From Bifidobacterium breve (GTDB taxonomy: Bacteria > Actinomycetota > Actinomycetes > Nanopelagicales > Nanopelagicaceae): 49,996 nt of DNA. How positions within the stretch are numbered: the stretch's first letter is position 1; every line of letters begins with the position of its first letter. Below are positions 27,240 to 41,272 of the stretch, piece by piece. The notes beneath the pieces are model-generated. The model was not told where the DNA came from. It did no database searches and was given only the letters and a program-made list of their open reading frames with translations. Made by a program: the position numbers and the translations under genes. The stretch lies in the NCBI GenBank assembly GCA_945860275.1, contig CAMAPN010000007.1, positions 1-49,996 on the forward strand, read 5' to 3'.

Positions 27240-28697
27240 TTAGTGGACTACTGCGCCACCTTCATTTTCAACGACTGCTTCTTTGCCGATGTTGATGAAA
27301 AGTGCGAGCACAATTGCACCAACAACTAAGAGCGCAGCGCTAACTGTGAATGCCACCGTAAATCCATGAGTCAAACCATACGTAGGAAGTTTTCCTGGAT
27401 TGCTCGTCATATAGGAAGTAGCAGCAGTTGCAGCAACCGTATTAAGAAGTGCAGTTCCAAGCGAACCACCAACTTGTTGGCTGGTATTGATGAGCGCGCT
27501 GGCAACACCAGCATCACGATTGCCTACGCCATGAAGTGCAGTACTCGAGAGCGGAATGAAGACCAGGGCCATGCCGCTACTCATAATGAGCAGCGCAGGC
27601 AGTACATGTGTCACGTACGAAGTTTCTGGAGTGATTTGTGTGAGCAATAAGAGCCCGACTGCGGCGGCGATCAATCCAGGAACCATCAACGGACGCGGTC
27701 CAACTCTAGGAAGTAGCTGTGAGGCAACTCCAGCGAAGACGATGATGCCAGCGGTAAATGGCAAGAAAGCAAAACCAGCTTTTAGCGGGGTGTACCCCAA
27801 GACTGACTGCAAATAAATTCCGAGGAAGAGGAACATCGAGAAGAGTCCTGCTCCAACAACGAGTGAGCCGAGATAAGAACCACCGCGGTTACGTTCGCTC
27901 AATACGCGAAGTGGCATCAACGGGTTCTTGACCTTCTTCTCAATGACAAAGAATGCGATGAGGAGAATTGCAGAAATGACCAGGAACGCGATGGTGATAT
28001 CTGCAGACCACCCTTTTGTTGCTGCCTCATTGAAGCCATAGACGAGTGCAAAGAGTCCTGCACATGCCGTTAACGTTCCCGGCAAGTCGTAACTGTGGTC
28101 GCCACCAGCTTTTGATTCATGGACATATTTGAACGCTAACAACCCTGCGATCAAAGCAATTGGCGTATTAACGCCAAGACACCAACGCCAGGAGAAATAC
28201 TCAGTAAGTGCGCCACCAAGAATGAGGCCAATGGCGGCACCACCACCGGAAATTGCACCATAGACACCAAATGCTCGGGCGCGCTCCTTGGGATCGGTGA
28301 AAGTCACACTCACAATCGAGAGCGCAGCAGGTGCTAGGAGGGCTCCAAAGACTCCTTGTAGCGCTCGTGATGCAAAGAGCAACTCTTGTGTCGAAGCTAT
28401 GCCGCCGAGTGCAGATGCAGCAGCAAAGCCGAGTAGGCCGATGATGAAGATTTTCTTGCGACCAACAAAATCTGCAATTCGACCACCAAGGAGAAGGAGC
28501 GATCCAAAGGCGAGCGTGTATGCAGTGACCACCCACTGTTGGTTGGCGTCAGTGATTCCCAAATCAGCTTTCGCGCTAGGTATCGCGATATTGACGATTG
28601 ATGCATCGAGCACCACCATCAGTTGGGCGATAGCGATGACAAATAGGGTGCGCCATCTGTCGGGAGGAAGGACTGGTGCAGAATTATTGGTTGTCAT
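27240..28697 (-). CDS. MFS drug-efflux transporter, DHA2 (EmrB/QacA) family
   Basis: A 485-residue polytopic protein with about 14 membrane helices. The DHA2 features VLDASIVNIAIPS in helix 1 and motif A GGRIADFVGRKK between helices 2 and 3 are visible, as is the long loop region around helix 7. Such proteins export drugs, dyes or metabolites by proton antiport. GGAGAG precedes the ATG on the minus strand. It is divergent from ilvD; a role in exporting amino acids is possible but not shown. No adjacent TetR- or MarR-type regulator is present. Confidence 0.9.
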   Translation of the reverse strand: MTTNNSAPVLPPDRWRTLFVIAIAQLMVVLDASIVNIAIPSAKADLGITDANQQWVVTAYTLAFGSLLLLGGRIADFVGRKKIFIIGLLGFAAASALGGIASTQELLFASRALQGVFGALLAPAALSIVSVTFTDPKERARAFGVYGAISGGGAAIGLILGGALTEYFSWRWCLGVNTPIALIAGLLAFKYVHESKAGGDHSYDLPGTLTACAGLFALVYGFNEAATKGWSADITIAFLVISAILLIAFFVIEKKVKNPLMPLRVLSERNRGGSYLGSLVVGAGLFSMFLFLGIYLQSVLGYTPLKAGFAFLPFTAGIIVFAGVASQLLPRVGPRPLMVPGLIAAAVGLLLLTQITPETSYVTHVLPALLIMSSGMALVFIPLSSTALHGVGNRDAGVASALINTSQQVGGSLGTALLNTVAATAATSYMTSNPGKLPTYGLTHGFTVAFTVSAALLVVGAIVLALFINIGKEAVVENEGGAVVH

Positions 28698-28789
28698 TGA
28701 AACTCTCCAGGTTATTGGTCTAGCGAACGCGAATGCGTAGAGGGTTAAGGTAACAGCCAGGACATTGGCTTTCTTGCAGCCCTTGCCTT

Positions 28790-28795
28790 TACTAT
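28790..28795 (+). promoter_or_regulatory. TACTAT -10 box placed for a leaderless ilvD transcript
   Basis: TACTAT ends 6 bases before the ilvD ATG, and no SD is present upstream of that ATG. Confidence 0.45.
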
Positions 28796-28801
28796 CTGCT
28801 T

Positions 28802-30502
28802 ATGACCAAGAACACAGGTGATAGCCCCCTAAATCCTATGAAACCGCGCTCCGGCACGGTGACCGATGGCATTGAGCGCGCACCAGCGCGCGGCATGCTT
28901 CGCGCAGTTGGCATGGGCGATGATGATTGGGTCAAACCTCAAATTGGTATTGCGTCATCGTGGAATGAGATTACTCCGTGCAATCTCTCACTCGATCGCC
29001 TCGCTAAAGCATCAAAAGATGGCGTGCATGAAGCAGGCGGCTTTCCTCTTCAATTCGGAACCATCTCAGTTTCTGATGGAATCTCGATGGGACATGAAGG
29101 AATGCACTTCTCGCTAGTTTCGCGTGAAGTTATTGCAGATTCAGTTGAAACCGTTATGCAAGCCGAACGTCTTGATGGCATGGTGATGTTCGCTGGATGC
29201 GACAAGTCGCTTCCGGGCATGATGATGGCTGCTGCGCGATTAGATGTTGCATCTGTATTTGTTTACGCTGGGTCAACGCTGCCTGGCAATGTAGACGGTA
29301 AAGATGTGACGATTATCGATGCATTCGAAGCGGTTGGTGCATGTGCACGTGGATTGATTTCAAAGGATCAGGTCGATCGCATCGAACGCGCTATCTGTCC
29401 TGGTGAAGGCGCATGTGGCGGTATGTACACAGCAAACACCATGGCATCTATCGGTGAAGCAATCGGTCTATCACTTCCAGGTTCAGCAGCGCCACCAGCG
29501 GTAGATCGTCGTCGTGATGATTATGCGAAAAAATCAGGCGTTGCCGTTGTCGAATTGATTCGTCAGGGAATTACCGCTCGCGACATTTTAACGAAGCAAG
29601 CCTTTGAGAATGCCATCACAATTTTGATGGCTCTTGGTGGTTCAACAAATGCAGTGCTGCACTTGATGGCACTTGCTCATGAGGCAGAAGTTCCACTTGA
29701 ACTCGAAGATTTCCATCGCATCGGTTCAAAAGTTCCACTCCTTGGCGATCTCAAACCATTCGGTCGCTATGTGATGAGCGATGTCGATAAAGTTGGTGGC
29801 GTTCCCGTAGTGCTTCGCTCGCTCCTTGATGCGAAGTTATTACATGGCGACACACTTACTGTTACCGGTAAAACGATGGCCGAGAATTTGGCGCACATCG
29901 CCCCACCAGATCCAGATGGTGAAATTCTTCGTGCAACGAAGAGCCCGATGGATACCACCGGTGGCATCACCATCTTGCATGGTTCGCTTGCACCTGAAGG
30001 TGCAGTAACAAAGACTGCGGGAATCGGAATCGAAACTTTCGAGGGACCTGCGCGCGTATTTGAACGAGAGCGCGAGGCGATGGATGCGCTCGAGAACGGC
30101 ACGATTCAAGCCGGAGATGTTCTTGTCATTCGCTACGAAGGGCCAAAGGGCGGTCCAGGTATGCGTGAGATGTTGATGATCACTGGCGCCATCAAAGGTG
30201 CAGGTTTAGGTAAAACGACGATGCTCCTTACTGATGGACGATTCTCCGGCGGGTCTACTGGACTATGCGTTGGCCATATTGCGCCAGAGGCAGTCGATGG
30301 TGGTCCCATTGCATTTGTGAAAAATGGCGACATCATTCGCATCAACACCAAGACTCGAGAGTTGGATTTGCTGGTCTCTGACGCAGAGCTTGCCGAGCGG
30401 AAGAAGGGGTGGCGGCCGCTCTCGCACCGATATACCCGGGGCGTCTTGGCCAAGTACAGCAAGTTGGTCGGATCGGCCTCCAAGGGTGCGGTCTGCGACT
30501 GA
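28802..30502 (+). CDS. ilvD: dihydroxy-acid dehydratase
   Basis: Fe-S enzyme that dehydrates the IlvC products to the 2-keto acids of valine and isoleucine. The 566-residue protein has cysteines in [11 protein letters not shown] and [14 protein letters not shown] that ligate the cluster, and the C-terminal ILVD_EDD signature [19 protein letters not shown]. It is transcribed separately from ilvBNC, with an attenuator-like leader between the two. Confidence 0.97.
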
Positions 30503-30540
30503 TCTCACTCGCCTGGGCGCCACCAGGGGTCAAGTAGGGG

Positions 30541-30570
30541 TTGACGCTTTGGCCTAGCTCCAGGGAGAAT
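30541..30570 (+). promoter_or_regulatory. promoter of the ilvB operon leader
   Basis: TTGACG (30541-30546) and GAGAAT (30565-30570) are 18 bases apart. The second hexamer ends 6 bases before the leader-peptide ATG, so the leader mRNA may begin at or close to that ATG. Confidence 0.45.
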
Positions 30571-30576
30571 AGGGGC

Positions 30577-30621
30577 ATGGCAACCGCCTCAATTATTGTG
30601 GTTATGGAGCGCGCGATCTAG
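30577..30621 (+). CDS. leader peptide of the ilvB operon attenuator
   Basis: A 14-codon frame encodes MATASIIVVMERAI then TAG. Four consecutive regulatory codons, Ile-Ile-Val-Val, sit in the middle and a further Ile ends the peptide. SD-like AGGGAG and GGGG precede it. The frame ends inside the left arm of the following hairpin, as expected for ribosome-mediated attenuation, which is known upstream of ilvB in other actinobacteria such as Corynebacterium. Confidence 0.75.
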   Translation: MATASIIVVMERAI

Positions 30622-30670
30622 CGTTAACACAGATCGTGCGCCATCCCTCAGTGGAATCACTGGGGGATTT
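30609..30670 (+). promoter_or_regulatory. attenuator hairpins upstream of ilvB
   Basis: Hairpin 1: 30609-30619 pairs with 30631-30641 over 11 bp with one G-U. Hairpin 2: ATCCCTCAGTG (30643-30653) pairs with CACTGGGGGAT (30658-30668) around GAAT, followed by only a short TTT run. The stop codon of the leader peptide lies at the end of the first arm (30619-30621). Ribosome stalling at the Ile/Val codons would be expected to change hairpin 1. The weak T run leaves open whether hairpin 2 terminates transcription or hides the ilvB ribosome site. Confidence 0.65.
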
Positions 30671-30705
30671 CGCATTAGTGGGGCCTCAACTAGGGAGTGA
30701 GAAAT

Positions 30706-32444
30706 ATGGGCGAGGAGATGACTGGCGCGCAGAGCTTGATCCGTTCTTTGGAGAACGCTGGCGTCGATGTCATGTTCGGAATCCCTGGCGGGGCGATCCT
30801 GCCTGCATACGACCCGATCTACGACAGCAAGATTCGCCACATCCTTGTTCGCCATGAACAGGGTGCAGGCCATGCTGCAACCGGTTACGCGCAAGCAACT
30901 GGTCGCGTGGGCACGTGTATTGCCACTTCTGGTCCAGGTGCAACGAACCTCGTCACGCCAATTGCCGACGCACAGATGGATTCAGTTCCGATGGTTGCGA
31001 TCACCGGTCAAGTTCCTTCGAGCGCGATCGGAACCGATGCATTCCAAGAGGCAGATATCCGCGGCATCACGATGCCCATTACCAAACATAATTACTTAGT
31101 TACGCGTGCAGTAGATATCCCACGTGCAATCGCAGAGGCGTATCACATTGCTGCAAGTGGTCGACCTGGAGCAGTTCTTGTTGATGTTGCTAAAGATGCG
31201 TTGCAGGAGAAGGTTAATTACGAATGGCCGAAGAATATCGATCTACCCGGCTATCGAGATCATTCACAGCCAGTTCCACAATCAATTCGAGATGCAGCAG
31301 CGCTCATCGCACAATCGGTGCGACCAGTCTTGTATGTCGGTGGCGGAGTTATCAAAGCCAATGCTCACAAGGAGCTTCGTGCGCTCGCCGAATTAGTTGG
31401 CGCACCAGTTGTGACAACTCTTATGGCGCGCGGCGCGTTCCCGGATAGCCATCAACTCCACGTTGGAATGCCAGGAATGCATGGCAGCGTTGCCGCGGTT
31501 ACCTCGTTGCAAAAAGCTGATTTGCTCATCACTCTTGGCGCGCGTTTTGATGATCGAGTTACTGGAAAGCTTTCAACATTCGCCCCTGGCGCAAAAGTTA
31601 TTCATGCAGATATCGATCCCGCTGAAATCGGAAAGAATCGTCATGCAGATGTTCCAGTAATCGGTGATGTTCGATTGACGATGGCGCAATTACTTCCTGC
31701 AGTAAAGGCAGAATTCGCAAAAAGTCAGCCCGATCTCACGCCTTGGTGGAAGCAGGTTGAGGGATGGCGCACCACCTATCCCGTTGGCTATGACGTGCCC
31801 TCAGATGGTTCGCTCTCACCGCAATATGTCATCGAGCGACTTGGCAAAATTTCCGATCCCGACACGATCTACACCGCAGGTGTAGGTCAACATCAGATGT
31901 GGGCGTCGCAATTCATCAGCTACGAGAAGCCACGCACATGGCTCAACTCAGGCGGCCTTGGCACGATGGGCTATGCAGTTCCTGCAGCGATGGGCGCAAA
32001 AGTTGGCGCTCCTGATACAACCGTTTGGGCTATTGATGGCGATGGGTGTTTCCAGATGACCAATCAAGAGCTCGTTACCTGCGCGATTAACAACATCCCC
32101 ATCAAAGTTGCACTAATTAACAATGAGAGTTTGGGAATGGTCCGCCAATGGCAGACCCTTTTCTACAACCAACGGTATTCAAATACCGACTTGCACTCAA
32201 AGCGCGTACCAGATTTCGCAAAGCTTGCCGATGCGATGGGTTGCATCGGACTTCGCTGCGAGCGACCAGAAGATGTTGACAAGACAATCGAAGCAGCGAT
32301 GGCAATTACTGATCAGCCAGTAGTGGTTGACTTCAATGTCTTCCGCGATGCGATGGTCTGGCCGATGGTTGCTGCTGGCACATCAAATGATGACATCATG
32401 ATTGCGCGTGAATTAGCGCCTGACTGGGATTCACAGGAGCTCTA

Positions 32445-32445
<1 letters not shown>
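30706..32445 (+). CDS. ilvB: acetolactate synthase large subunit
   Basis: Thiamine-diphosphate enzyme making 2-acetolactate or 2-aceto-2-hydroxybutyrate. With ATG 30706 (GGGAG eight bases upstream) it has 579 residues. The activating Glu lies in [15 protein letters not shown]. The ThDP/Mg motif GDG is in [16 protein letters not shown] and is completed by the NN of ALINN. The FAD-type middle domain has [11 protein letters not shown]. It shares bases with ilvN (TAATG) and is the first structural gene after the attenuator. Confidence 0.96.
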
Positions 32446-34007
<1,562 letters not shown>

Positions 34008-34008
<1 letters not shown>

Positions 34009-35594
34009 TGAGCAAACCAGTAGTTCTAATCGCTGAAGAGTTAAGCCCAGCGACCCTTGAAGCGCTCGGACCTGATTTCGAAGTGCGCAATTGCAACGGC
34101 GCTGATCGCGCTGAACTCTTGACTGAATTGGGTAAGGGAGTCTCTGCTGTTCTTATTCGTTCAGCTACCAAGATGGATAGCGAAGCGATTGGAGCCGCCA
34201 AGGGTTTGAAGGTTATTGCTCGCGCTGGAGTTGGACTCGACAACGTCGATGTTCCTGCTGCTACTGCCGCTGGCGTAATGGTCGTCAACGCTCCAACATC
34301 AAATATCGTCAGCGCTGCAGAGTTGGCAATTGCCCTAATTCTTGCCAGCGCTCGCTTTATTTCTCCGGCGCATGCCGCGCTTCGGATTGGTAAATGGGCA
34401 CGCTCGAAGTACACCGGTGCAGAGCTGTTCGAGAAGACGCTCGGCATTGTTGGGTTTGGTCGCATTGGTCAACTTGTTGCTCATCGAATGCAAGCCTTTG
34501 GTATGAAGGTGATTGCATATGATCCATATCTGCAACCTGCTCGTGCTGCACAACTCGATGTGCGCCTAGTTGATCTCGATACGTTGTTGGCTGAAAGTGA
34601 TTTCATCACAATCCATCTTCCTAAGACCAAAGAGACCGCAAATCTCATCGGCACCGAAGCGCTAAAGAAAGTGAAACCAACAGTTCGAATCATTAACGCA
34701 GCTCGTGGTGGCGTTCTTGATGAGGAGGCGCTATATGAAGCGCTCAAGTCGGGGAAAGTCGCTGGCGCTGGTCTTGATGTTTTTGCGACCGAACCTTGCA
34801 CCGATTCACCGCTATTCACTCTCGATAATGTCGTTGCGACTCCACACCTGGGCGCATCAACAGATGAGGCGCAAGAGCGCGCTGGCATCGCAGTTGCGAT
34901 TTCAGTTCGTAAAGCACTCGCAGGCGAACTTGTTCCTGATGCAGTGAACGTCAAAGGTGGCGCCATTGCAGAAGATGTTCGCCCGGCTTTGCCTCTTGTG
35001 GAGAAATTGGCACAAGTTCTCTTTGCAATCGCGGGGGAGTCGCCAGTCTCAGTTGATGTAGAAGTTCGTGGCGAAATTGCTGGTGAAGATTGTTCAGTCC
35101 TTGCGACAAGTGCACTTCGCGGCATTTTGAGCGCCTCTGGCGTCAACGATGTCACCTACGTCAATGCACCATCGCTCTCGCAAGAGCGCGGTTTGGTTGC
35201 CTCTGTCACAACTACTGGTGATAGCCCAGATCATCGAAACATGGTCTTTCTCTCGGGTGCGCTCTCTAATGGAGAGCGCGTCTCAGTCTCTGGCACGCTC
35301 ATGGGAATTAAGCGCGTCGAGAAGATTGTTGAGATCGATGGCCTCGATGTCGATGTCGCTTTCTCAGATCACCTACTTTTCCTTCGCTATACCGATCGTC
35401 CTGGCGTCGTCGGGGCAGTTGGTAATGCGTTAGGAGCGCTCGGAATCAATATCGCAGGTATGCAAGTTGCCCGTAACCAACGTGGAGGAGAAGCACTCAT
35501 GGTCCTTACTGTCGATTCGGCTATTCCAGCCGATGTTCTTGCCAAGGTTGCGAAGGAAACTTCCGCAACTGCTCGATTTGTGACGTTGGTGTAA
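34008..35594 (+). CDS. serA: D-3-phosphoglycerate dehydrogenase, long ACT-domain form
   Basis: First enzyme of serine synthesis. The 528-residue protein has an NAD-binding GFGRIG near residues 149-154, a catalytic Arg in [10 protein letters not shown], and His in [14 protein letters not shown]-terminal extension contains an intervening domain and an ACT domain (about 450-528), the long form seen in Mycobacterium. It is fused into the branched-chain operon with 1-nt overlap to ilvC and 2 nt before leuB. Confidence 0.95.
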
Positions 35595-35596
35595 CT

Positions 35597-36631
35597 ATGG
35601 CGAACGTACAGAAGATTGCAGTTGTCGGTGGCGATGGAATTGGTCCAGATGTCATTAATGAAGGCCTCAAGGTTCTTGATGTTGTTTCCAAGAAGCACGA
35701 CCTCAAGTTCGAAACAACTGATTTCAAATTAGGTGCTGCCCATTTCCATAAGACCGGTGAGGTTTTGCACGATTCCACAATGGCCGAAATCGCAAAGCAC
35801 GACGCGATTTTCCTTGGCGCCGTTGGCGACCCAACAGTGCAAAGCGGTGTTCTCGAGCGCGGTTTATTGCTCAAGATGCGTTTTGCATTCGATCAATACG
35901 TCAACCTTCGTCCAGCGAAGTTGTACCCGGGAGTCACTTCACCATTGGCGACTAAGGATCCAATTGATTTTCTGGTAGTTCGTGAAGGTACCGAGGGTCC
36001 ATACTCAGGTGCAGGCGGCTCACTGGCAGTGACTACGCCACGCGAGGTCGCAACAGAGGTAAGCATCAATACGCGCTCAGGTGTTGAGCGGGTAATTCGC
36101 TATGCATTTGAATTATGCATTGCCCGCGGCCGTAAAAAAGTCACAATGGTTCATAAAGACAACATCATGTTGCACTCAGGTGCGCTCTGGAAGCGTACTT
36201 TCGACGAGGTCAAGAAAGATTATCCAAATATCCCAACTGATTATTTCCACGTCGATGCTGCAGCAATGTTCTTTGTCACTGACCCTGCACGATTTGATGT
36301 TGTAGTCACCGACAACTTGTTCGGCGATATCCTCACCGATATCTCGGCTGCAATTACTGGTGGAATCGGCCTAGCCTGCTCAGGCAACATCAGCCCAAAT
36401 CCAAATTTCCCATCGATGTTTGAGCCAGTTCATGGTTCTGCTCCTGATATCGCAGGAAAGAACATCGCTGATCCAACAGCGACTGTCCTCTCACTTGCGA
36501 TGATGCTCGATCACCTCGGTCATCCGAAGGCAGCAGCTGATGTCAACGCGGCAGTTGCACAAGATCTAGCCACACGTAAACCAGGACGCTCGACTACCGA
36601 TATCGGCTCTGCAATAGCAGCTCTTATCTAA
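35597..36631 (+). CDS. leuB: 3-isopropylmalate dehydrogenase
   Basis: NAD-dependent oxidative decarboxylase for leucine synthesis that also acts on 3-methylmalate in the citramalate route. The 344-residue protein starts with the beta-decarboxylating signature GGDGIGPDV and has the dehydrogenase motif around [22 protein letters not shown]. It starts 2 nt after serA. With cimA in the same operon, it can serve both leucine and isoleucine synthesis. leuA, leuC and leuD are not in the window. Confidence 0.93.
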
Positions 36632-36647
36632 TCCAAAAGGAAAGACC

Positions 36648-37733
36648 ATGAAGATCGAACTAAAGCCAAGCACAACGCCAGTTCCTGATGCGCTACGCAC
36701 GGAGCGAGTTGCTGTGCCTGGCTTTGGTAAGTACTACACCGACAACATGGTCGTTGCGAATTGGAGTGAAGCGACTGGATGGAGCGATGCGCAACTAGTG
36801 CCATACGCGCCGATAACCCTTGATCCTGCAACGGCAGTCTTTCACTACGGACAAGAGATCTTCGAAGGTTTAAAGGCGTACCGCCAAGCAGATGGCGGAG
36901 TATCTCTCTTCCGTCCCGAAGAAAATGGTGCGCGTTTTGCGCGAAGTGCAAAACGAATGGCTCTTCCTGAACTCGCCGTTGGAGATTTCGTTGCATCAGT
37001 AGAGGCGCTAGTTAAACAAGATGCTGGCTGGGTACCAAACAATCCAGGCGAGTCGCTCTACATTCGTCCGTTCATGATTGCCTCAGAAGTTGGGCTAGGC
37101 GTGCGGCCAAGTAACGCAGCAATGTACTTACTCATAGCCACGCCTGCTGCTGCATATTTCAATGCGGCAAAACCTGTCTCAGTCTGGATTTCAACGGAGT
37201 ATGTTCGCGCCGCACCAGGTGGTACTGGCGAGGCAAAATGTGGCGGCAACTACGCGGCATCTCTTGTTGCACAAAAAGCAGCTGCACAAGAAGGTTGCGA
37301 TCAAGTGGTCTGGCTCGATGCTGTCGAGCGTAAGTGGGTAGAAGAGATGGGTGGCATGAATCTCTTCTTCGTTAAAGGCACTGGAGATAAGGCGACGGTC
37401 TTTACTCCTTCGCTCACCGGCACATTGCTTCCGGGAATCACTCGCTCTTCACTGCTCACCGTGGCGAAAGATCTCGGCTTTAGCGTCGAAGAGGGAATGA
37501 TTTCGGTCGATCAGTGGCGCCAAGGTGTAGCAAGTGGTGAAATCACTGAAGTCTTCGCCTGCGGAACTGCAGCTGTTATTTCAGGAATCGGCGAAGCAAA
37601 GAGCGCGCAAGGGAATTTCACAATTGGCGATGGGAAGCCTGGTCCAATCACGATGAAGTTGCGCGAACATCTTCTTGGTATTCAACATGGAACTGTTGCT
37701 GATAAGCACGGTTGGATGAAGCGCGTTCTCTAA
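36648..37733 (+). CDS. ilvE: branched-chain amino acid aminotransferase
   Basis: PLP fold-type IV enzyme performing the last step for Val, Leu and Ile. The 361-residue protein has the catalytic Lys in EAKCGGNYAASL and the class IV signature EEMGGMNLFFV. AAAGGAAAG precedes the ATG. The stop overlaps the cimA start (TAATG). Length is typical of the larger actinobacterial IlvE form. Confidence 0.96.
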   Translation: MKIELKPSTTPVPDALRTERVAVPGFGKYYTDNMVVANWSEATGWSDAQLVPYAPITLDPATAVFHYGQEIFEGLKAYRQADGGVSLFRPEENGARFARSAKRMALPELAVGDFVASVEALVKQDAGWVPNNPGESLYIRPFMIASEVGLGVRPSNAAMYLLIATPAAAYFNAAKPVSVWISTEYVRAAPGGTGEAKCGGNYAASLVAQKAAAQEGCDQVVWLDAVERKWVEEMGGMNLFFVKGTGDKATVFTPSLTGTLLPGITRSSLLTVAKDLGFSVEEGMISVDQWRQGVASGEITEVFACGTAAVISGIGEAKSAQGNFTIGDGKPGPITMKLREHLLGIQHGTVADKHGWMKRVL

Positions 37734-39331
37734 TGGCTACTCAGCCTCAGGGCGATGCCTTTCACATCTACGACACCACTCTGCGCGATGGCGCGCAACA
37801 AGAGGGTCTAAATCTCTCTGTACACGACAAGATGGTGATCGCTCGCCACTTAGATGATCTCGGCGTTGGCTTCATCGAAGGTGGCTGGCCAGGAGCCAAT
37901 CCACGCGATACTGTGTTTTTTGCTCGCGTCGCTAAAGAGATTCAATTTAAGAATGCGCAATTTGTTGCCTTTGGCGCCACGCGCCGTCCTAATGTGAAGG
38001 CAGCTGATGATGAGCAAGTTCGTGCACTCATCGATTCCAAGGCGCCGATTATTACCGTCGTTGCTAAGTCGCACGACCTGCATGTCGATCTTGCACTCAA
38101 GACCTCACTCGATGAGAACCTTGCGATGGTGCGCGACACGATTTCATTCATGGTTAGAGAGGGGCGTCGAGTCTTCCTTGATGCTGAGCATTTCTTCGAT
38201 GGCTACCGCGCGAATAAAGCTTATGCACTTGAGGTAGTGCGCGTTGCGATGGAGGCAGGTGCAGACCTTGCTGCGCTCTGTGACACCAATGGTGGAATGC
38301 TCCCGACGGAAATTGCCGACGTTGTTGCAGATGCACTTGCTGTCACCGGAGCTCGAGTTGGCATCCATTGCCATAACGACACGGGTTGCGCGATTGCCAA
38401 CTCGCTTGCTGCTATCGATGCGGGTGCAACTCACGTGCAGGGAACGCTTAATGGCTATGGCGAACGTACGGGTAACGCTGACCTTGTCTCGATCATCGCG
38501 AACTTGGAATTGAAATATAAGAAGCCGGTCCTTCCAGAGGGAAGTTTGCGTGAGGCGTTCCGTATTTCGCACGCGGTTGCCGAAGTCACCAACATCGCAC
38601 CAAGCCCGCGCCAACCGTATGTAGGTATCTCGGCCTTCGCCCATAAAGCGGGCTTACATGCATCAGCAATCAAAGTCGATCCTGCGCTCTATCAACATAC
38701 TGAACCAGAGTTTGTTGGTAATGACCGTCGAATGCTCGTCTCTGATATGGCAGGTCGTGCATCTATTGAGCTCAAGAGCCAAGAGATGGGTATCGATGTC
38801 AGCGCTGATCGCGAGCTTGTTGGAAAAGTAGTCGAGAGAGTCAAAGAGCTCGAGATGCGTGGTTATACCTTCGAGGCGGCGGATGCATCCTTTGAATTGC
38901 TTCTTCGTGAAGCTAAGGCGGGGGAGAAGGTCCGCTACTTCACTGTGCTCGAATGGTCGACCAATGTTGAGCGCCGACCAGATGCTTCAGTGATCTCTCG
39001 CGCTACTGTGAAAATCAAGGCGCGCGATAAAGAGTTCATTACTGCTGGAGAAGGAAATGGTCCGGTTAACGCAATTGATAATGCGCTTCGCAAAGGTTTA
39101 GAGAGTATTTATCCCGAGTTAGCTGCACTTGAATTAACTGACTACAAAGTTCGAATCCTCGAAGGACGCCAGGGCACCAGCGCGGTGACGCGTGTGCTTG
39201 TAGAAACTAGCGATGGCGAAGGGGAGTGGACCACCGTTGGCGTCCACGAGAATGTGATTGCCGCCTCTGAATTGGCGCTCGAAGAAGCCGTTACCTACGG
39301 TTTGCTCAGAAAAGGAATAAAACCTGAGTAG
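37733..39331 (+). CDS. cimA: (R)-citramalate synthase
   Basis: Condenses pyruvate and acetyl-CoA into citramalate, giving 2-ketobutyrate without threonine deaminase. The 532-residue protein (start ATG 37733) carries the HMGL-like catalytic start YDTTLRDGAQQEGLNLS, the metal-binding HCHND region (GIHCHNDTGCAIANS) and a C-terminal LeuA-type regulatory domain. The DGAQQEG pattern and length fit the TIGR00977 citramalate type better than 2-isopropylmalate synthase; that distinction is from family knowledge. It ends the operon. Confidence 0.9.
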   Translation: MATQPQGDAFHIYDTTLRDGAQQEGLNLSVHDKMVIARHLDDLGVGFIEGGWPGANPRDTVFFARVAKEIQFKNAQFVAFGATRRPNVKAADDEQVRALIDSKAPIITVVAKSHDLHVDLALKTSLDENLAMVRDTISFMVREGRRVFLDAEHFFDGYRANKAYALEVVRVAMEAGADLAALCDTNGGMLPTEIADVVADALAVTGARVGIHCHNDTGCAIANSLAAIDAGATHVQGTLNGYGERTGNADLVSIIANLELKYKKPVLPEGSLREAFRISHAVAEVTNIAPSPRQPYVGISAFAHKAGLHASAIKVDPALYQHTEPEFVGNDRRMLVSDMAGRASIELKSQEMGIDVSADRELVGKVVERVKELEMRGYTFEAADASFELLLREAKAGEKVRYFTVLEWSTNVERRPDASVISRATVKIKARDKEFITAGEGNGPVNAIDNALRKGLESIYPELAALELTDYKVRILEGRQGTSAVTRVLVETSDGEGEWTTVGVHENVIAASELALEEAVTYGLLRKGIKPE

Positions 39332-39334
39332 TCT
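39329..39334 (+). promoter_or_regulatory. TAGTCT -10 box overlapping the cimA stop
   Basis: TAGTCT contains the cimA stop codon TAG and ends 6 bases before the ATG of the secreted protein gene. No SD is visible. Confidence 0.4.
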
Positions 39335-39340
39335 TCTCTG

Positions 39341-41272
39341 ATGTTGCGGAGCTTTCGATCATATGCACCAATAATTCTCGCCTTGGCTGTACTGGCCTGG
39401 GGGACACCAATGGCTGCTGCGGCGGTACCTACTGCGACCTTTGCACCAGCGACTGGCGCCGTGAACATCGCGCTCAATGCGAACATCACCATCACATTTA
39501 GTGAAGCAGTGCGGAAAATCGATGGCACTGCACTATTTGCTGATGATCTTGAAACCCTTGTCACTCTTAAGGTGACAAACGCTGCGGGCGCTGATGTGGG
39601 CTTCCAACCATTTATCAACGCCGGCAAGACAATCATCACCATCAATCCGTCGGCGGATTTGAATCCATCACAGGCATATTACGTAGCGATTGGTGCAACG
39701 GTTGAAAATGCAACCGATGAAGCAATCGCTCCGACTGCAATCACATTCACCACAGGCCCGCTCACCGAGATTACTGGCACAAGTGATGGATTCGGAGACT
39801 TTAGTGTGACCGCAAATGAGAATGTCGCTATCGGGGCGACGGTCACAACGATCACTACACAGGGCGCGGGTACTCCCAGCTTCTCTCTCGGTGCAACTCT
39901 GGACTTCGCTAAATTTTCCATAGTTGCAGCAACAGGTGCGTTGAGTTTTACAGAGTCGCCTAATTTCGAAATTCCGACAGACAGCTCTGCAAGCGGGTTC
40001 AACACCTACAGGACGAATGTGAGAGTCCGATATGACAGCAATACCCCTGCAGACGCCACGGATGACACGCAAGAAGTTGAGCTCATACAAGTCACAGTGG
40101 TAAATGTTGATGAATTTGACCCAGCCATAACCAGCAACGGGGGCCAGGCAACGGCGGCAATTACGATCAATGAGGGAGCAACTGAAGTCACCACGGTTAC
40201 CGCTACCGGTGATGGGACACCAGTTTTCTCGTTGAATGGCGGTGCGGATGTCGCACTTTTTGCAGTTACAGGGGCAGGTGCGCTCACCGTCACTGCGCGC
40301 GACTTTGAAACACCTCAGGACTTAGGCGCGACCGCTGGTAACAACACATATGTAGTCGTAGTTCGAGCTACGGATGCTGATAATGAGACTGTCGATCAGA
40401 CCTTGACTATCTCTATTGCCGACGTCGATGAAGTTGCGCCAACACTTTCTGCATCAGGAATTTCTGGCGCGACATCTTCAGGTGGCACCCTTACGTTCAC
40501 TTCGAGCGAGGTGGGGACTTACTACTACTTAATCCAAAATTCAACGGGTGCTGATCCTGCAGATGCTGCTGCTGTAGAAGCAGGCGCTACCGCATCTGCT
40601 GCTGCCTTGGCAGCTGCTAATACGATCCCGGTCGGCGGTTTAACTGCGAGTACGAACTATGAAGTATTCGTCATTGTTAAGGATGGTGCAAATAATCGTT
40701 CTGCAGTTGTTACCTTGAATTTTGCGACGTTGACAGCTGTTGTAGTTGCACCGCAGCCTCCGCCGAAGACTCCCGAGCAGATCGCAGCCGAGATTGCAGA
40801 GCGCAAAGCAGCGGAAGAGCGATACGCTGCTGAAGTAGCCGCAGCTGCACGCGCGGCAGCGGAGAAGGTTGTCGCAGAAGAGAAAGCCCGAGTCGATGCA
40901 GCAATCAAGTTAAATGTGGAGTTAGCGGAAGCTAAGGTCACTGCCGTAGCCCAGACTAAAAATCAGCTGGCACCTCTTAAGAGCGCGAACGCATCCTTAA
41001 ATAAAGCCCTTGCTGACTTGGATGCCCTACTTAAACCTTCAGCAGCTTTCGTCGCGCCTCGGATTGATCTTGCAGAGAGATTTGCGGGTAAGCGGATAAC
41101 TATTCAACGAGAAGTCATTCGAAATGGAAAGACGACCTTGGTCAACGTTGGCACTTTTCTCCTGGATTCACGAGGCAACGTTGTGCTCTCAAAATCCCTG
41201 AAAATTACCAGAGGTACGAAGTTGCGTGTATCAGCGCCGGGTGAAAGCGTCACCCGAATTACCGCAAAGTAA
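39341..41272 (+). CDS. secreted Ig-like / cadherin-like repeat protein with coiled coil
   Basis: A 643-residue protein with a signal peptide (basic start, hydrophobic 9-22, AAAA-VP near 25-30). An SbsA-type Ig-like domain (about 30-137) contains ITFSEAV. Two cadherin-like domains (about 155-257 and 268-365) end in VNVDE and IADVDE. A FN3-like domain (about 368-465) follows, then a Pro linker, an Ala/Glu-rich coiled coil (about 478-565) and a small basic C-terminal domain. No LPXTG, membrane helix or S-layer-homology repeat is seen, so attachment is unclear. Function is unknown; adhesion or envelope structure is plausible. Confidence 0.8.
   Translation: MLRSFRSYAPIILALAVLAWGTPMAAAAVPTATFAPATGAVNIALNANITITFSEAVRKIDGTALFADDLETLVTLKVTNAAGADVGFQPFINAGKTIITINPSADLNPSQAYYVAIGATVENATDEAIAPTAITFTTGPLTEITGTSDGFGDFSVTANENVAIGATVTTITTQGAGTPSFSLGATLDFAKFSIVAATGALSFTESPNFEIPTDSSASGFNTYRTNVRVRYDSNTPADATDDTQEVELIQVTVVNVDEFDPAITSNGGQATAAITINEGATEVTTVTATGDGTPVFSLNGGADVALFAVTGAGALTVTARDFETPQDLGATAGNNTYVVVVRATDADNETVDQTLTISIADVDEVAPTLSASGISGATSSGGTLTFTSSEVGTYYYLIQNSTGADPADAAAVEAGATASAAALAAANTIPVGGLTASTNYEVFVIVKDGANNRSAVVTLNFATLTAVVVAPQPPPKTPEQIAAEIAERKAAEERYAAEVAAAARAAAEKVVAEEKARVDAAIKLNVELAEAKVTAVAQTKNQLAPLKSANASLNKALADLDALLKPSAAFVAPRIDLAERFAGKRITIQREVIRNGKTTLVNVGTFLLDSRGNVVLSKSLKITRGTKLRVSAPGESVTRITAK

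Follow-up and report, generated by a model that had tools for sequence, protein, structure and literature searches.

A probable ribosome-mediated attenuator on a leaderless leader mRNA upstream of ilvB in the Nanopelagicaceae

The DNA directly upstream of ilvB in an ilvBN(C) gene cluster very likely carries a ribosome-mediated transcription attenuator on a leaderless leader mRNA, in which the start of transcription, the stalling of the ribosome, and termination with its direction are predicted steps. The leader is a further example of the long-known actinobacterial ilvB leader-peptide attenuator. It extends the known leaderless branched-chain attenuator to what are probably Nanopelagicaceae, streamlined freshwater bacteria, and suggests that ribosome-coupled attenuation survived genome reduction in this family. 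Through the attenuator, the cell probably turns on its branched-chain amino acid genes in response to a shortage of those amino acids. No study of attenuation in the Nanopelagicaceae was found in the open-access literature searched. The window, which is the whole stretch of 49,996 nucleotides that was analysed, comes from a genome of 1.30 Mb in 61 contigs that is 92% complete, and the nearest named ilvB loci include Candidatus Nanopelagicaceae at 79-81% protein identity, which makes Nanopelagicaceae the probable family. A promoter, a 14-codon peptide with Ile-Ile-Val-Val, an 11-bp hairpin, and a second hairpin had been proposed from the sequence alone, and all of them were read directly in the window, as follows.

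30541..30546, plus strand: -35-like box TTGACG, read directly; TTGAC is kept in the family
30565..30570, plus strand: -10-like box GAGAAT, an identical hexamer in 30 of 52 family loci
30577, plus strand: predicted transcription start at the A of the leader ATG (leaderless), deduced from the position of the -10 box, the conserved geometry, and published orthologous starts
30577..30621, plus strand: leader peptide ORF MATASIIVVMERAI with stop codon TAG, from direct reading, conservation, and shuffles
30592..30603, plus strand: presumed control codons Ile-Ile-Val-Val, read directly; a branched-chain run is conserved in the family
30609..30641, plus strand: hairpin 1, candidate antiterminator, arms 30609-30619 (GCGCGCGATCT) and 30631-30641 (AGATCGTGCGC), 11 pairs including one G-U
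30643..30668, plus strand: hairpin 2, candidate terminator, arms 30643-30653 (ATCCCTCAGTG) and 30658-30668 (CACTGGGGGAT), 11 bp, followed by TTCGCATTAG
30669..30676, plus strand: terminator tail TTCGCATT, a weak U-tract, of which 30671-30675 pairs with 30636-30640 if hairpin 1 is blocked
30692..30697, plus strand: Shine-Dalgarno-like AGGGAG of ilvB, found by eye

The two promoter boxes are separated by an 18-nt spacer, and six bases lie between the second box and the leader ATG, which starts 36 nt from the first base of the TTGACG box. The leader ORF has 14 codons (M A T A S I I V V M E R A I, then the stop) and no Leu codon. Its stop codon (30619-30621) begins in the 5' arm of hairpin 1. The ATG of ilvB is located at 30706, which gives a leader RNA of 129 nt. 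The RNA from 30577 to 30720 (144 nt) folds with -53.7 kcal/mol (z = -3.06 against its shuffles). A search of 30500-30760 with 4227 Rfam covariance models gave no match up to E = 5, neither a riboswitch nor a T-box, and at gathering scores the whole window contained two tRNAs only.

The arrangement was compared in a family group made up of genomes of the window's GTDB family together with loci L032-L054 and L086, which were placed by IlvB identity (78-85%); among the latter, L050 is titled Bifidobacterium breve and L086 Streptomycetaceae. The group comprised 60 loci, and removal of five that were identical in the last 200 nt (L034, L036, L037, L041, and L046) left 55 distinct loci. Three of these were not counted: L004 has no leader, L035 has 112 nt of upstream sequence at a contig edge, and the terminator of L113 was mis-called, despite which its leader, MARRIIVVMERAD, is present. 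In the 52 counted loci, the first base of TTGAC lies 35 nt (23 loci) or 36 nt (29 loci) before an ATG or GTG, which opens a short ORF that ends at the first hairpin. At a spacing of 35-37 nt there is no space for a Shine-Dalgarno sequence, and translation of the leader therefore most likely begins at the RNA's 5' end. The family spacing also agrees with the starts reported for C. diphtheriae, S. lividans, and C. glutamicum, which fall at the leader start codon or one base before it. The suggestion from the sequence alone that the leader mRNA may be leaderless has thereby become very probable.

A stricter automatic test required TTGAC, a distance of 35-38 nt, and a run of at least three Ile, Leu, or Val codons. 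It was passed by 50 of the 54 family loci with enough upstream sequence (shuffles 0/270), by 16 of 19 genomes that each represent another family of the class (shuffles 0/95), and by 36 of 54 further actinobacterial loci (shuffles 0/270). Four of the 23 class-level genomes (G042, G050, G051, and G057) had no full ilvB match and were left out. A terminator test based on perfect stems undercounts outside the family and was not used for these counts. In L011, L014, and L015, the branched-chain codons are scattered and not consecutive (MLSRISVRLERAS). L004, from an assembly of the same genus in 270 contigs (G001:C191), shows the end of ilvD fused to the 3' arm of hairpin 1, and the promoter, the leader, and the 5' arm of hairpin 1 are missing. 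Either the deletion is genuine, in which case ilvB would escape attenuation, or the contig is misassembled.

Co-variation of the stems was assessed in 36 of the 52 sequences, after equal-length sequences differing at three bases or fewer were removed. For each hairpin, the arms of one sequence pair better with each other than arms swapped between species (0/20000 permutations). RNAalifold on a MAFFT alignment gave a weak consensus of 10 pairs, 3 of them with both sides changed, because the terminator arms shift by one column between groups; the comparison of own and swapped arms was therefore used instead. In 43 of 52 loci (counted locus by locus), 3-5 nt separate the end of the codon run from hairpin 1, so that a ribosome at the start of the run leaves hairpin 1 free, while a ribosome at the stop codon covers it. 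The gap between the two hairpins is at most 1 nt in 49 of 52 loci, a count partly imposed by the search range, and the hairpins overlap in 24 of 52. The sequence-only reading had proposed an alignment across relatives as a check, and both the Ile/Val codons and the co-varying stems proved to be conserved.

The tail behind hairpin 2 is less uniform. Across the 36 sequences, the 8 nt after the last G of hairpin 2 hold 3 to 7 T, with 5-7 in 28 of them, and the sequences of the window's own genus (L001, L003, and L117) have 3, the lowest of all. Hairpin 2 itself is intact and conserved in this genus, with a T-A pair where others have C-G. The concern that the TTT tail is short was a fair one for the window's genus: with so degenerate a U-tract, termination there is probably weak or aided by factors, for example NusG or Rho. 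TTTCGCATT was considered as a general terminator tail and rejected: a single copy of GGGRTTTCGCATT is present in each of 7 of 21 genomes, at ilvB in six of them, and the assembly of the seventh genome (G006) has no full ilvB match.

Transcription would begin at or beside the A of the leader ATG, and ribosomes would load at the very 5' end. When charged Ile- and Val-tRNA are scarce, the ribosome is expected to stall on the Ile/Val codons, just before it reaches hairpin 1. This hairpin would then form first, and its base would spread into the 5' arm of hairpin 2 through pairing of GGA (30606-30608) with UCC (30644-30646). Hairpin 2 would thereby be delayed, and the polymerase would read on into ilvB. 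When both amino acids are plentiful, the ribosome would reach the stop codon inside hairpin 1 and cover its 5' arm; hairpin 2 would form at once, and transcription would stop before ilvB.

Folding models show how the two hairpins could compete. In modelled RNA that ends at the 5' arm of hairpin 2, hairpin 1 forms together with the three GGA/UCC pairs, which take bases that hairpin 2 needs. With a ribosome modelled on the stop codon, hairpin 1 is blocked and hairpin 2 forms, with its base extended by pairing of GUGCG (30636-30640) with CGCAU (30671-30675). In the full RNA at equilibrium, both hairpins coexist, with pair probabilities of 1.0 for hairpin 2 and at least 0.97 for hairpin 1, which means that the switch can only work kinetically. 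In models with hairpin 2 still incomplete, 32 of 52 loci show an invasion of its 5' arm by hairpin 1 over at least 2 nt, three of them by purely local pairing. There is no invasion in 13 of 52 loci, and the boundary switch is therefore not universal.

Another possible, though rather unlikely, reading accepts the attenuation as real and places the difference in the mode of termination. In the window's genus, termination would be Rho-dependent or NusG-assisted and not intrinsic, and the ribosome would control access to the RNA between the leader and ilvB. It would fit the 3 U in 8 nt after hairpin 2, found in every own-genus sequence counted, and a terminator scan covering 28000-39500, which did not call hairpin 2. 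PMC1262725 also proposes Rho for actinobacterial cys leaders that have no terminators. Against it stands the intact and conserved hairpin 2 of the genus.

A more doubtful proposal is that the attenuator has been remodelled in the window's genus. Leu sensing would have been left to leuA, a palindromic operator would have been lost, and the U-tract would have become the genus-fixed UUUCGCAUU, whose CGCAU would pair with the 3' arm of hairpin 1 while a ribosome occupies the stop codon. The extended terminator would then be truly exclusive with the antiterminator and would act through factor-assisted termination or RNA stability, not through classical U-tract release.

The sequence-only reading had also suggested that control could act on translation of ilvB. 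Hairpin 2 or an alternative fold would hide the ribosome-binding site, and the stalled ribosome would open it. The weak U-tract of the window's genus speaks for this, as does a possible pairing, seen by eye, of AGGGAG with UCCCU in the 5' arm of hairpin 2; actinobacterial ileS T-boxes are likewise predicted in PMC1262725 to act on translation. However, among relatives the hairpin with five to seven U after it stays in the corresponding position (28 of 36), and the distance from hairpin 2 to ilvB varies from 26 to 117 nt. The modelled opening of the Shine-Dalgarno sequence in the window is similar with and without hairpin 2 (0.57 vs 0.49, where a crude picker chose ACTAGG and not AGGGAG), and the mean opening over 52 loci with the hairpin is 0.58. 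Translational control is thus very improbable, and this suggestion was abandoned.

A chance small ORF beside two structural hairpins with no regulatory role is refuted in practice by the conserved geometry, codons, and co-varying stems together with the shuffles, even though promoter-like matches in 28000-39500 are no commoner than in shuffled sequence (3 found vs 9.1 expected). The promoter match alone is little evidence, and it is the conserved position that counts. Among 5000 dinucleotide shuffles of 30541-30705, an ORF with four Ile/Val codons in succession arose in 3, two hairpins of 10 bp or more in 7, and the ORF with both hairpins in none. Apart from the leader, no plus-strand ORF of 8-30 codons anywhere in the window has four Ile/Val codons in a row. 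The shuffles, the conservation in the family, and the co-varying stems bear out the original identification of an Ile/Val leader-peptide attenuator.

Most relatives carry an additional element upstream of the promoter. In 42 of 52 family loci there is a match to the palindrome TGAGATnnnnATCTCA at no fewer than 10 of its 12 positions, a score reached by 2 of 1040 shuffles, and 37 of the 42 palindromes end exactly 4 nt before TTGAC by a count of the individual loci (for example, G010:C50:31963-31978 and G007:C2:155458-155473). Exact sites number 13, spread over 12 of 37 genomes, and 10 of these sites lie at ilvB. The palindrome is probably the operator of an ilvB regulator. NdgR/LtbR was considered as its owner and rejected, as the published NdgR/LtbR motifs do not resemble it. 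A literature search with the palindrome halves and ilv gave no related paper, judged by title. The palindrome is absent from 30480-30541 of the window, and no exact site occurs in the five genomes of the window's genus. At the place where the family relatives have TGAGATnnnnATCTCA, own-genus loci L001, L003, L005, and L117 have GTCAAGTAGGGGTTGAC in common (window 30529-30545), which forms an inverted repeat GTCAA-N7-TTGAC across the -35 box.

The gene order downstream of the leader is ilvB, ilvN, ilvC, serA, leuB, ilvE, and cimA, and all seven genes score above the cut-offs of their best NCBIfam models.

30706..32445, plus strand: ilvB, acetolactate synthase large subunit (NF005860, 1082 bits; TIGR00118, 757 bits)
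32445..32936, plus strand: ilvN, acetolactate synthase small subunit (TIGR00119, 149.5 bits)
32983..34008, plus strand: ilvC (TIGR00465, 418 bits)
34008..35594, plus strand: serA, phosphoglycerate dehydrogenase (TIGR01327, 590.6 bits)
35597..36631, plus strand: leuB-type 3-isopropylmalate dehydrogenase (NF002898, 543.5 bits)
36648..37733, plus strand: ilvE (NF009897, 491.4 bits)
37712..39331, plus strand: cimA, citramalate synthase (TIGR00977, 654.3 bits against a cut-off of 450)

The family models agree with the earlier placement of leuB and ilvE in the ilvB gene series. The lack of a Leu codon in the leader despite leuB, which had been raised as a puzzle, is true, but it has a plausible answer. 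LeuB can serve isoleucine synthesis via the citramalate route. No ilvA was found; the threonine deaminase model gave three weak matches in the genome, which, judged by their own sequences and their neighbours, were taken for threonine synthase, a cysteine synthase-like protein, and TrpB. The leuA gene is on a different contig (L140, G000:C22) behind its own leader, MFIALGSLLLSCREGAN, and runs of three or more Leu codons are present in the leaders of 20 of the 22 leuA loci examined. The presence of cimA, the failure to find ilvA, and the separate leucine leader at leuA together provide a plausible explanation for the absence of Leu codons. The leuA leader shows a -10-like stretch close before its ATG and may be leaderless too.

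Leu occurs in the ilvB control run of 7 of 50 family loci, 14 of 16 genomes from other families of the class, and 36 of 36 further loci, many of them from Streptomyces. This suggests that the narrowing of sensing from Ile/Val/Leu to Val/Ile is a trait of the family, in which the related genomes are not independent of each other. A further caution is that citramalate synthase also occurs outside the family. After cimA, the window contains a 643-aa ORF (39341-41272) that has a signal-like start and cadherin-like repeat text and whose C-terminal part is alanine-rich and coiled; by eye, it looks like a secreted surface protein.

Leader peptides and terminators upstream of ilvB were predicted in 2005 in Corynebacterium, Mycobacterium, and Streptomyces (PMC1262725). 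The ilvL leaders of S. lividans and S. coelicolor resemble the present one in a leaderless start (a predicted one in the window), hairpins, a U-rich stretch (weak in the window), ilvB downstream, and a separate leucine leader at leuA, whereas MRTRILVLGKRVG contains Leu and a long spacer precedes ilvB (PMC8079986, PMC1262725). In S. coelicolor, according to PMC1262725, ilvB regulation stayed the same when the candidate control codons were changed, and this result counts against the attenuation reading. The ilvB-OMG motif and other ilvB uORF motifs are alike in predicted uORF attenuation upstream of ilvB and differ in the motif itself, according to PMC10272879.

In C. diphtheriae, the start site of the ilvB leader is reported as mapped at the first leader codon, which makes it leaderless, as is predicted for the window; it belongs to another lineage, and its peptide, MNIIRLVVITTRRLP, includes Leu (PMC5784534). 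The M. tuberculosis ilvB1NC attenuator was tested by mutation, as reported in PMC13236596. It has, like the window, a uORF with control codons (LVVI) and a terminator/antiterminator switch, which in the window is a predicted one, and its terminated leader RNA has been seen. It differs in the Leu among the control codons, in a U-tract terminator that works in reporters, and in a leader of 166 nt (PMC13236596).

The C. glutamicum ilvBNC leader starts one nucleotide from the leader start codon (PMC11857589), and PMC10272879 calls this element the ilvB-II motif. Its attenuator was likewise tested by mutation: the antiterminator and the terminator share the boundary GCC, where mutations are reported to change expression (PMC11857589, PMC10272879). 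Both systems have a branched-chain-rich leader peptide, an antiterminator hairpin (a candidate one in the window) that abuts the terminator and would compete for boundary bases, and the order ilvBNC. The C. glutamicum leader has the peptide MTIIRLVVVTARRLP with Leu codons, an extra first hairpin, a length of 292 nt, and a terminator tested by mutation, whereas the window has no Leu, a leader of 129 nt, and a degenerate U-tract.
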